Program-made: the position numbers and the translations under genes
Notes under the pieces: model-generated
Told to the model about the DNA's origin: nothing
Database searches by the model: none
Seen by the model: only the letters and a program-made list of their open reading frames with translations
NCBI RefSeq assembly: GCF_009905615.1
Contig: NZ_JAAAKW010000002.1
Coordinates: 310,001 to 374,000 of the forward strand
Length of the DNA: 64,000 nt
Direction: 5' to 3'
Source of the DNA: Pseudomonas sp. SLFW
GTDB taxonomy: Bacteria > Pseudomonadota > Gammaproteobacteria > Pseudomonadales > Pseudomonadaceae
Shown: positions 48,920 to 53,325 of the stretch, piece by piece
Position numbering within the stretch: the stretch's first letter is position 1
Layout of the letters: the number at the start of each line of letters is the position of its first letter

Positions 48920-50158
48920 ATGAATTTCATTCTGTACGCAGTGCCGTTTTTCTTCGTGCTGATCGGTGTCGAGCTGGTCGCCGACCGTTGGCGCAAGGTC
49001 AACAATTACCGGGTCGCCGATGCGATCAACAGCCTCAGTACAGGCGTGTTATCGACGACCACGGGTCTGCTGACCAAAGGCGTGGGGCTGGTGACCTACG
49101 CCTTTGCGCTGGAGCATCTGGCCTTGTGGCGGCTGTCTGCCGAGAGCGTCTGGGTCTGGGTGTTCGCCTTCATCTTTTACGACTTCTGCTATTACTGGCT
49201 CCACCGCATGGGACACGAGCGCAACATCCTCTGGGCCGCGCACTCTGTGCATCACCAGAGCGAGGACTACAACCTCTCGACCGCCTTGCGCCAGACCAGC
49301 ACCGGCTTTCTGCTGAGCTGGATTTTCTATCTGCCGCTGGCCGTGGTCGGCGTGCCGCTGGTGGTGTTCGTGGCGGTGGCCTCGCTCAATCTGCTTTATC
49401 AATTCTGGGTCCACACTCGGCACATTCCCAAGCTGGGCTGGTTCGAATGGTTCTTCGTGACGCCATCCAATCATCGCGCTCACCACGCGCAGAACCGTGT
49501 CTACATGGATCGCAACTACGGCGGGGTGTTCATTGTTTGGGACCGACTGTTCGGCACCTTCCAGGAAGAGCTGGATGAGGAGCCGCCGATTTTCGGGGTC
49601 ACAACCCCTTTGAGAAGCTGGAACCTGCTGTGGGCGAACGTGCAGTTCTATGCTCAATTGGCAGCGGATGCGCGACGGGCCGAATCGACGTGGGACAAAT
49701 GGCGGATCTGGTTCATGCCGACCGGGTGGCGGCCTGCGGACGTGGCGCGGAAATATCCGATCAGCAAGCCGGACCTTGTGCAATTCCGCAAATTCGAGGT
49801 GCCGTTGAGCCTGACGCAGCAGCTGTACATCGGCGTACAGTTTTCGCTGTACACGCTGCTGGGGAGTTATCTGCTGTCGAACGGCGACGTGTTGCCGTGG
49901 GCTGCGCTGATCGTCGGCTGGTCATGGGTGGCGTTGGGGCTGTTCGTGTTTGGCGCGGCGTTGGAGAATCGACCTGCGGCGTTGAAGCTGGAAGGGGTGA
50001 GGCTGGTGGCGAACCTGCCGTTAATGGCGGTGGCTCCGGCAGTAGGCCTGTGGCCCGCGAGTGCGTTGGGCTGGACGGTATTGCTGACTTACATGGTGCT
50101 GAGCGCAATCGCTGTGTATTGCGCTCGGGGTCGATTCACTCGTCTGGCCGGTCCTTGA
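48920..50158 (+). CDS. Sterol desaturase / fatty acid hydroxylase family protein
   Basis: A 412-residue integral membrane di-iron enzyme. The eight-histidine pattern is visible as HRMGH (H95, H99), HSVHH (H108, H111, H112) and NHRAHH further on. Hydrophobic helices lie before, between and after, with three extra ones in the C-terminal 120 residues. Family members hydroxylate or desaturate lipids, and some cleave alkylglycerols; bacteria rarely make sterols, so the substrate is more likely a fatty acyl chain or other membrane lipid. A GTG three codons earlier (48911) is possible. Its end overlaps dedA by 23 bases, converging. Confidence 0.85.
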   Translation: MNFILYAVPFFFVLIGVELVADRWRKVNNYRVADAINSLSTGVLSTTTGLLTKGVGLVTYAFALEHLALWRLSAESVWVWVFAFIFYDFCYYWLHRMGHERNILWAAHSVHHQSEDYNLSTALRQTSTGFLLSWIFYLPLAVVGVPLVVFVAVASLNLLYQFWVHTRHIPKLGWFEWFFVTPSNHRAHHAQNRVYMDRNYGGVFIVWDRLFGTFQEELDEEPPIFGVTTPLRSWNLLWANVQFYAQLAADARRAESTWDKWRIWFMPTGWRPADVARKYPISKPDLVQFRKFEVPLSLTQQLYIGVQFSLYTLLGSYLLSNGDVLPWAALIVGWSWVALGLFVFGAALENRPAALKLEGVRLVANLPLMAVAPAVGLWPASALGWTVLLTYMVLSAIAVYCARGRFTRLAGP

Positions 50159-50759
50159 CCTCGACGGGGGCCACGGCTGAAACCGCCAGTTTGGCCTCGC
50201 GCGCAATACGGGCGTTTTTGATACGACGTCTGATCCAAAGCAGGCCACCAATCACCAGCAGGGCGCCCAGTACCCACAACTCGTATTTCTTGACGTTGCC
50301 CAGCAAACCTTCAAGCACCGCGCCGAATTTGTAGGCCGCCGCGCCCAGCGCCGCCGCCCAGACCGCAGCACCGATGCCGTTGAGCAGCAGGTAACGTCCC
50401 GGCGGATACCCGGAAAGGCCGATGGCCACCGGCATTACCGTGCGCAAACCGTAGACAAATCGGAAGCTCAGCACCCAGATGTCGGGGTGCCGACGAATAT
50501 GTTCCAGCGCGCGATCGCCCAGCAGTTGCCAGCGCGGCTTGCGTGCCAAAAGCTTGCGGCCATGCTTGCGCCCCATGAAATACCAGAGCTGATCGCCTGC
50601 GTAGCTGCCGAAGAAGGCAACCACCACGACCAGATTGATGTCCATGTACCCTCGGAATGCGAGAAATCCAGCGAGAACCAAAATGGTCTCACCTTCAAAA
50701 AAGGTCCCGAGGAAAAGGGCGAAGTAGCCAAATTCTTGTAAAAAATGCTGGAGCATCAT
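50136..50759 (-). CDS. DedA family membrane protein
   Basis: A 207-residue DedA/VTT-domain protein with the typical GETILVLAGFLAFRGYM, GSYAGDQLWYFMGRKHG and RFVYGLRTVMPVAIGLSGYP segments. The conserved arginines in FRFVYGLR and acidic E23/D-type residues are present. DedA proteins move lipids such as undecaprenyl phosphate or phospholipids across the membrane. The last residues are cytosolic and charged. It converges on the desaturase gene and diverges from ppk. Confidence 0.89.
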   Translation of the reverse strand: MMLQHFLQEFGYFALFLGTFFEGETILVLAGFLAFRGYMDINLVVVVAFFGSYAGDQLWYFMGRKHGRKLLARKPRWQLLGDRALEHIRRHPDIWVLSFRFVYGLRTVMPVAIGLSGYPPGRYLLLNGIGAAVWAAALGAAAYKFGAVLEGLLGNVKKYELWVLGALLVIGGLLWIRRRIKNARIAREAKLAVSAVAPVEVKDRPDE

Positions 50760-50901
50760 ATGGGTGCTGGCGAAATGAACGCGCAGCCTAACGCGCCGGA
50801 CACATTCAGGAAAGTGTCGAAATGTGTCACCACGTTAAAGTTTCCTACGACACCAGCAGAATAGTCGTCTAGGAAGCGCGTTTAAGTCCTGCAAGACTGT
50901 C

Positions 50902-50952
50902 TCGACATACAACTGTCATGCAGGAGTCATAATGCTGGCTTATAACTGTCAC
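50902..50952 (+). promoter_or_regulatory. PhoB-binding array upstream of ppk
   Basis: Five PhoB-like 7-base half sites repeat every 11 bases: TCGACAT (50902), CTGTCAT (50913), GAGTCAT (50924), CTGGCTT (50935) and CTGTCAC (50946). The last pair, CTGGCTTATAACTGTCAC, matches the Pho-box consensus at 16 of 18 positions, and the first pair at 14 of 18. A possible -10 (CATAAT, 50928-50933) lies 8 bases after the first box. Orientation suits ppk. The rest of the 343-base dedA-ppk gap holds nothing else I can identify. Confidence 0.75.
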
Positions 50953-51102
50953 GTTTGCCCGCACGCTCGGGCCCGCAGGTGTCCGGTGTGACCGGTCTGC
51001 GCCACTGATCGTCCCTTCTGTCGTGAAGGGACCGACAGATCGATCTCTTCGGCCGTTCTCCCGGCCCAACTGTTACAGGGCAACAGCCTTACAGGATTAT
51101 TC

Positions 51103-53325
51103 ATGAGTACCGAAGGAAGCACCGAAGCCTCAATTGAACTTGAACCCGAAGTCTCTTCTGCGGAAGTCACCGCCGTGGTCGAACCGACTATCGAGGTGCT
51201 GCCCGCCGTCGAGCCGCAGCAGCCTGCCAGCCCGGCGATCGTGATCCCCAACCTGGATGACAGCAGCCTTTATATTCACCGCGAGCTGTCGCAGCTGCAG
51301 TTCAATATTCGCGTACTTGAGCAGGCGCTGGATGAATCCTACCCGCTGCTCGAACGCCTCAAGTTTCTGCTGATCTTCTCCAGCAACCTGGACGAATTCT
51401 TCGAAATCCGCGTCGCGGGCCTCAAGAAACAAATCACCTTCGCCCGTGAGCAGGCCGGTGCCGATGGCTTGCAGCCTCATCAGGCGCTGGCGCGCATCAG
51501 TGAGCTGGTGCACGGCCACGTGGATCGCCAGTACGCCATCCTCAACGACATCCTGTTGCCCGAGCTTGAAAAGCATCAGGTGCGCTTCATCCGTCGTCGT
51601 TACTGGACCACCAAGCTGAAGACGTGGGTCCGTCGTTATTTCCGCGACGAAATCGCACCGATCATCACACCGATCGGCCTCGATCCGACGCACCCGTTCC
51701 CGTTGCTGGTCAACAAATCTCTGAACTTCATCGTCGAGCTGGAAGGCATCGATGCCTTCGGTCGCGATTCGGGTCTGGCGATCATCCCGGCCCCGCGCCT
51801 CTTGCCGCGCATCATCAAGGTGCCGGAAGACGTCGGCGGCCCGGGCGACAACTACGTGTTCCTGTCGTCGATGATCCACGCCCACGCCGATGACCTGTTC
51901 CAGGGCATGAAGGTCAAGGGCTGCTACCAGTTCCGCCTGACCCGTAACGCCGACCTGGCGCTGGATTCCGAAGACGTAGAAGACTTGGCCCGCGCCCTGC
52001 GTGGCGAGCTGTTCTCCCGTCGCTACGGCGATGCGGTGCGTCTGGAAGTGGCCGACACCTGCCCGAAACACCTGTCCGACTACCTGCTCAAGCAGTTCAA
52101 CCTGAGCGAGACCGAGCTGTATCAGGTCAACGGTCCGGTGAACCTGACGCGTCTGTTCAGCATCACCGGTCTGGACAGCCATCCGGAGCTTCAATACTTG
52201 CCGTTCACCCCGGCGATTCCAAAGCTTTTGCAGAACAGCGAAAACATCTTCAACGTGATCAGCAAGCAGGACATTCTGCTGCTGCACCCATTCGAATCCT
52301 TCACGCCGGTGGTGGATTTGCTGCGTCAGGCCGCAAAAGATCCTCACGTTCTGGCTGTGCGTCAGACGCTGTACCGCAGTGGCGCCAACTCGGAAATCGT
52401 TGATGCGCTGGTGGATGCCGCGCGTAACGGCAAGGAAGTCACGGCAGTCATCGAGCTGCGCGCGCGGTTCGACGAAGAGTCCAACCTGCAACTCGCCAGC
52501 CGCTTGCAGGCGGCCGGTGCGGTGGTGATTTACGGTGTGGTCGGCTTCAAGACCCACGCCAAGATGATGCTGATCCTGCGTCGCGAAGCGGGCGAGATCG
52601 TGCGTTACGCCCACCTCGGGACTGGTAACTACCACGCGGGCAACGCCCGTCTGTACACCGACTACAGCCTGCTGACCTCCGACGACGCCTTGTGCGAAGA
52701 CGTCGGCAAACTGTTCAGTCAGTTGATTGGCATGGGCAAGACGCTGCGCATGAAGAAGTTGCTGCACGCGCCGTTCACACTCAAGAAGGGCATGCTCGAC
52801 ATGATTGCCCGCGAGACGCAGTTCGCGACCGACGGCAAACCTGCGCACATCATTGCCAAGTTCAACTCGCTGACTGATCCGAAGATCATCCGCGCGCTGT
52901 ACAAAGCCAGCCAGATGGGCGTGAAGATCGATCTCGTGGTGCGGGGCATGTGCTGCCTGCGTCCGGGGGTTCCGGGCGTGTCGCACAACATTCAGGTGCG
53001 CTCGATCGTGGGTCGCTTTCTGGAGCACACCCGCGTGTTCTACTTCCTGAATGGCGGCGACGAGCAGATGTTCCTGTCCAGCGCCGACTGGATGGAACGC
53101 AACCTCGACAAGCGCGTCGAGACCTGCTTCCCGGTGGAAGGCAAGAAGCTGATTCTGCGCGTGAAGAAGGAGTTGGAGGGGTATCTGACCGACAACACCC
53201 ACGCGTGGCTGCTGCAGCCGGACGGGCGCTACCTTCGCAGCACGCCAACCGGCAACCAGAACGCCCGCAATGTGCAGGCGTCGCTTCTGGAGAAGTTGAG
53301 CAACCCGGTCCTCAGCGTACGCTGA
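51103..53325 (+). CDS. ppk1: Polyphosphate kinase 1
   Basis: A 740-residue PPK1, which polymerises the gamma phosphate of ATP into polyphosphate at the membrane. An acidic, unconserved N-terminal tail of about 45 residues precedes the N domain ([20 protein letters not shown]), head domain and two phospholipase D-like C domains. The autophosphorylated histidine is expected in KTHAKMMLI near residue 485, and the second histidine-region near [22 protein letters not shown] precedes the ATG. The stop overlaps the ppx stop by 14 bases, converging, unlike the E. coli ppk-ppx operon. Confidence 0.96.

Follow-up and report, generated by a model that had tools for sequence, protein, structure and literature searches.

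A conserved candidate PhoB promoter before the polyphosphate kinase gene of Pseudomonas sp. SLFW and its likely hemB-ppk ancestry

Described systems and layout of the site before ppk

The closest described counterpart of the site analyzed here is the pstS promoter of E. coli, in which a Pho box is followed after 10 bp by the -10 element TATAAC and a further CTGTCAC half-site lies over this -10 element. In P. aeruginosa, PhoB reportedly controls the exopolyphosphatase gene ppx (Gallarato, 2014), and strain 8830 of this species reportedly carries a sigma-E promoter of ppk (described by Zago in 1999). When we searched positions 50701-51110 on the forward strand for a sigma-E/AlgU-like site (at least 8 of 11 consensus matches, spacing of 16-17), none was present. 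A review counts PpK among the proteins induced by most bacteria to store phosphate (PMC4415409), so there is a precedent for ppk genes being controlled by phosphate. Strict spacing between the Pho box and the core promoter is demanded by published structural models (PMC10294691), and the layout before ppk fits this demand.

The window, by which we mean the whole stretch of 64,000 bases that was analyzed, contains ppk at positions 51103-53325 of the forward strand. The gene encodes a polyphosphate kinase 1 of 740 amino acids with four Pfam PP_kinase domains. A divergent gene for a VTT-domain (DedA-type) membrane protein (50136-50759, reverse strand) precedes it, and a Ppx/GppA-type gene converges on ppk from behind. 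Most of the 80 loci compared below have a relative of the divergent gene upstream. Between the divergent genes, five 7-mers follow each other at steps of exactly 11 bp: TCGACAT (50902), CTGTCAT (50913), GAGTCAT (50924), CTGGCTT (50935), and CTGTCAC (50946). They match CTGTCAY at 4, 7, 5, 5, and 7 of 7 positions, respectively. An earlier note on this DNA had reported these 7-mers as PhoB half-sites, and their positions and phasing are as described. Its two pair scores were reproduced by a hand count against the Pho-box consensus CTGTCATAWAWCTGTCAY: the pair 50902+50913 matched at 14/18 and the pair 50935+50946 at 16/18 positions, and for the pair 50913+50924 we counted 13/18.

Very probably, PhoB activates a promoter at this site that has the standard layout, ancestrally served hemB and ppk, and now, after loss of hemB, serves ppk alone. 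The putative Pho box (50913-50930, forward strand) is formed by the half-sites CTGTCAT and GAGTCAT, whose starts lie 11 bp apart, and takes the place of the -35 element. A 10-bp spacer (50931-50940, forward strand) separates it from the -10 element TATAAC (50941-50946, forward strand), which is conserved among 64 relatives. The site combines a pair of 7-bp direct repeats that start 11 bp apart, a box at the -35 place, and a fixed distance to the -10 element, which are the features of a Pho-box promoter. A third conserved half-site, CTGTCAC (50946-50952, forward strand; 56/64 relatives), begins on the last base of the -10 element and covers the bases that immediately precede the predicted start (about 50953). 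At 17-bp spacing, the -35 place (50918-50923) reads ATGCAG, which is no consensus -35 element, and it overlaps the variable gap between the half-sites; columns 50920-50922 vary across relatives. Our sigma-70 scan returned no -35/-10 pair here, but it accepts only -10 hexamers whose sixth base is T and was therefore blind to TATAAC. One point against a PhoB promoter is the second half-site (50924), which in the window has only 5/7 matches. Genes for PhoB, PhoR, Pst-type proteins, and PhoU are all found in this genome.

The sequence points to PhoB binding, to a transcription start site, and to a phosphate response of the ppk promoter in the following way. Upon phosphate starvation, phosphorylated PhoB would bind head to tail to the two half-sites at 50913-50930, i.e. 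at the -35 place, and the bound protein would bring sigma-70 RNA polymerase to the -10 element TATAAC, ten bases downstream. Transcription would then start near 50953. The third half-site, which lies over the -10 element and the start, may aid loading, limit initiation, or act as a discriminator. Just after the predicted start, there is a candidate leader stem-loop (GCCCG...CGGGC, 50957-50972, forward strand), which is common to the hemB leaders of relatives. In 20 chosen sequences, 91.7% of its pair cells were formed and 3 of the 6 pairs were changed on both sides. However, out of 500 shuffles, 1, 5, 25, 69, and 92 did at least equally well on the five measures, and the covariation support for this structure is therefore mixed.

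Rank in the genome and conservation in relatives

To rank the site, we used a background of 864,000 bases, which consisted of the window and 800 kb from two chosen contigs out of the 6,493,286 bases of the genome. This background is not a random sample, since one of the two contigs was chosen for carrying the window and pst genes. Here, the four-step score of the ppk site (24/28) was the single highest on both strands, followed by a pstC-type site (23), the pstS-type site (22), and a site at a porin gene (22). The five-step score of the ppk site (28/35) was also the highest. The pattern GTCAY-N6-GTCAY-N10-TATNA occurred once in all 6,493,286 bases, namely at the ppk site, and the backwards control gave 0 matches. 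The porin-gene site is a Pho-like four-step array (22/28; G000:C1:308488-308527, L171) located 131-170 bp upstream of a gene for a Porin_5-family porin, and judging from this array the gene is a possible member of the Pho regulon.

For the comparison with relatives, we collected 80 ppk loci, all from outside P. aeruginosa. Two of them were dropped, L055 because its contig was cut and L079 because it has no array (in this Oceanospirillum locus, the best place scored 18, which was not above its next best), and 78 were used. The conservation table excludes the 11 loci without hemB at ppk and holds 67 loci, 64 of which are distinct. Half-sites with at least 5/7 matches were found at 50913 in 63, at 50924 in 63, and at 50946 in 56 of these 64 relatives, but at 50902 in 8 and at 50935 in none. 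In each relative, the site was picked as the best match to a pattern that contained half-sites 2 to 5 and the -10 element and lacked half-site 1, and the counts for the conserved parts therefore lean upwards; half-site 50935 still yielded 0/64 although it was part of this pattern. The best conserved columns were the GTCAT of half-site 50924 (1.8-2.0 bits) and the TATAA of the -10 element, and the repeat cores were about as strongly conserved as the -10 element (column frequencies T.98, A 1.0, T.91, A.98, A.97, C.84). TATAA stands exactly 10 bp from the Pho box in 58 of the 64 distinct relatives with hemB. Among the other six, five have TACAA, TAAAA, or TACAT at the -10 place, and one (L075) lacks a -10 element at the right distance. 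The layout is kept despite changes in the intervening and following letters in Stutzerimonas (L058-L061), in L072/L073, and in the P. fragi group (L012, L013, L034); in the four Stutzerimonas rows, the third half-site reads ACGTCAT. In 12 of the 78 loci (including L012, L034, L060, L068-L070, L072, L073, and L077), the site surpassed the next-best place by 3 of 36 at most and these rows are therefore uncertain.

Since the position of the site had been chosen by best match, we repeated the search for a two-site box with the start codon of hemB as the only anchor. For this purpose, 64 loci could be anchored, 61 of them distinct. The best box started 71-75 bp upstream of hemB in 49 of the 61 distinct loci. 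Ten of the remaining 12 boxes were found at 50, 61, or 83-85 bp, displaced by roughly one or two of the 11-bp steps (L075 is among these ten, at background score), one at 94 bp, and one at 134 bp. Boxes with at least 11/14 matches were present in 51/61 distinct loci, compared with 1.8% of 1,220 base shuffles. A related promoter pattern was detected in 170 of 298 genomes of the same genus, with no more than one match per genome and 0 backwards-control matches in the table. We inspected 48 of the matching loci (18 + 30, from 43 genomes, five of them taken twice) and found 43 upstream of hemB and 5 directly before ppk; these five come from 4 genomes, one of which is that of the window.

These data bear on how many half-sites would be used. 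The earlier note had read the run as an array of five half-sites that could bind at least two PhoB dimers; on this reading, at least two full dimers would sit in series upstream of a ppk promoter. It can be seen that three members of this array stand (50913, 50924, 50946) and two do not: TCGACAT (50902-50908, forward strand) is unconserved and probably a chance match, and CTGGCTT (50935-50941, forward strand) coincides with the spacer and the flank of the -10 element. At the latter, the conserved letters GCTT contradict the consensus: they differ from TCAT at two positions of the core and form part of this flank. The exact 11-bp steps of all five 7-mers and the top five-step score in 864 kb speak for an array, and so does the E. 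coli pstS promoter, which shares the four-step layout and has a weak third half-site. Since three of the five half-sites are conserved and the stretch 50935-50946 is chiefly the -10 element, two consecutive full boxes are unsupported and we regard such an array as very unlikely. Nor does a five-step run stand out in this genome, whose own pstS-type site reaches 27/35. With five half-sites the note counted too many, and the ppk promoter is a strongly conserved one of the ordinary textbook kind. The other part of the proposal, that a PhoB-type operator lies ahead of ppk, appears well founded in view of the rank in the genome, the similarity to the promoter of E. coli pstS, the conserved box, spacing, and -10 element, and the presence of phoB and phoR; the 11-bp phasing, on whose conservation in close relatives the note had let its claim depend, is retained there.

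Gene order and loss of hemB

Beyond its promoter type, the locus is of interest for its hemB-ppk ancestry and because hemB was lost repeatedly. The site is separated from ppk by hemB in 67 of the 78 usable loci, and in the three loci read for this distance (L001, L002, L005) the end of hemB is 16-18 bp away from ppk. An origin of the promoter for ppk alone was rejected because hemB intervenes in the relatives. In the window, hemB is absent between the promoter and ppk, and it is likewise missing at ppk in 11 of the 80 loci. On the ppk tree, this loss took at least 5 changes, 3 of which are forced by well supported branches. Most likely, the promoter arose for a hemB-ppk operon, and loss of hemB in this lineage would have placed ppk directly behind it, after a leader of roughly 150 nt.

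The segment 51040-51086 (forward strand, approximate boundaries) is likely a decayed remnant of the 3' end of hemB. Its local alignment scores were 61 and 69 compared with shuffle maxima of 49 and 51 (L001, L002), and with L003 score and shuffle maximum were both 51; the alignment also spans the 16 bp preceding ppk. When positions 50986-51045 were compared alone with the three loci tried, no likeness to hemB above shuffles was found. A relic of the hemB start beside the promoter would be plausible by position, but the local alignment scores (29, 27, 26) fall below the shuffle maxima (32, 31, 33) and such a relic is therefore not claimed.

We searched 24 of the 80 relatives' genomes for HemB (PF00490) and read the metal-site motif. 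All 11 genomes without hemB at ppk carry a single HemB gene elsewhere, with the motif DTCFCEYTSHGHCG. A copy with DVALDP[FY]T[TS]HGQDG was found in each of the 13 genomes with hemB at ppk; two of these genomes (L008, L022) also carry the cysteine kind. The genome of the window has one HemB gene (G000:C9:108799-109737, L089), which lies on another contig and is of the cysteine-motif kind. We take the DVALDP[FY]T[TS]HGQDG and the cysteine motif to mark the Mg-type and the Zn-type enzyme, respectively.

The promoter took different forms in the lineages without hemB at ppk. In L019 and L037, the Pho box, the spacing, and TATAAC are kept. In L012, L013, and L034, the first half-site matches at 6/7, the second is weaker (4/7), and TATAAA stands at 10 bp. 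In all six loci of the putida clade (L040-L045), the Pho box is kept, but the -10 element is a weaker one (TATCTT or TATCGT) and there is no third half-site. Persistence of the promoter in some of these loci suggests that ppk itself is worth regulating; alternatively, hemB may have been lost so recently that there was too little time for decay. For a broader picture, we see about equal grounds for and against: across the Pseudomonadaceae, hemB and ppk would form one phosphate-starvation operon, which has been pared down where a zinc-type HemB is encoded elsewhere. Some lineages, such as the present one, would retain PhoB control of ppk alone, and others (the putida clade), with a weakened -10 element and no third half-site, would complete a natural series of promoter variants.

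Published data and comparison with known systems

Related regulators of the OmpR/PhoB class bind similarly spaced repeats, and one of them, responding to a signal other than phosphate, might use the repeats instead of PhoB. Against a PhoB promoter and in favor of such a regulator, two published data sets on other pseudomonads show ppk without a link to PhoB. In the proteome of P. putida BIRD-1, Ppk had a log2 change of 1.34 in the wild type, compared with 0.89 when phoBR was mutated, and Table 2 of the report lists the protein as unaffected by PhoBR (PMC5082522). For P. aeruginosa in the blood of burn patients, another report gives Pho regulon genes as down and ppk as unchanged (PMC4774932). 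The weaker -10 element and the missing third half-site of L040-L045 could explain the BIRD-1 result if BIRD-1 shares them, but the Pho box is still present in these loci. Against another regulator, the motif agrees with that of the E. coli pstS promoter and scores alongside the genome's own pst-type sites. Moreover, the motifs of the only two such regulators compared, BfmR (TACAA-N3-GATACA) and CzcR (GAAAC-N6-GTAAT) of P. aeruginosa (PMC8025907), are different. We thus hold an alternative regulator of this class to be highly improbable. As hemB is a housekeeping gene and the -10 element is among the most conserved blocks, one might also think of a constitutive sigma-70 promoter conserved for this essential gene, with GTCAT repeats to which PhoB does not bind, but this is very improbable indeed, since the -35 place (50918-50923) takes in the variable gap between the half-sites and since the repeat cores show a degree of conservation similar to that of the -10 element and persist in some lineages without hemB.

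The PhoB-activated promoter predicts that polyphosphate kinase and, in most of the sampled pseudomonads, also an early heme enzyme belong to the Pho regulon. In the open-access literature searched, we came across no description of a hemB-ppk operon under Pho control. Species with a kept and species with a weakened promoter are marked out by our data for testing how phosphate starvation and polyphosphate are connected.

The ppx gene of P. aeruginosa studied by Gallarato in 2014, which is likewise a polyphosphate gene and said to be under PhoB, is a different gene from ppk. Ahead of the ppx of the window, no box was listed within the window (at least 11/14 with each half-site at least 5/7, or 12/14). 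The Pho boxes of the genome's own pst-type and phoB genes (C12:232903, C12:234118, C12:245866, minus strand) have the same half-sites and the same 11-bp step as the ppk site. They differ in what follows: 10 bp after the box we read by eye TACAGT, TAGGGT, and TCTAAT, -10-like hexamers that are poorer than TATAAC or unlike it, and the half-sites of the pst-type sites are arranged in other runs. When the 40 bases from position 50913 were compared with the E. coli pstS promoter (a stretch that starts 106 bp upstream of the annotated pstS), 30/40 were identical, including all of the last 12 (TATAACTGTCAC), and the next best match in the 864 kb reached 24/40, at the own pstS-type site and at one unassigned place. 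The two promoters differ in the second half-site, which is CTGTCAT in E. coli and GAGTCAT before ppk, and in the genes they precede, a phosphate transporter gene in E. coli and ppk or hemB in the pseudomonads.
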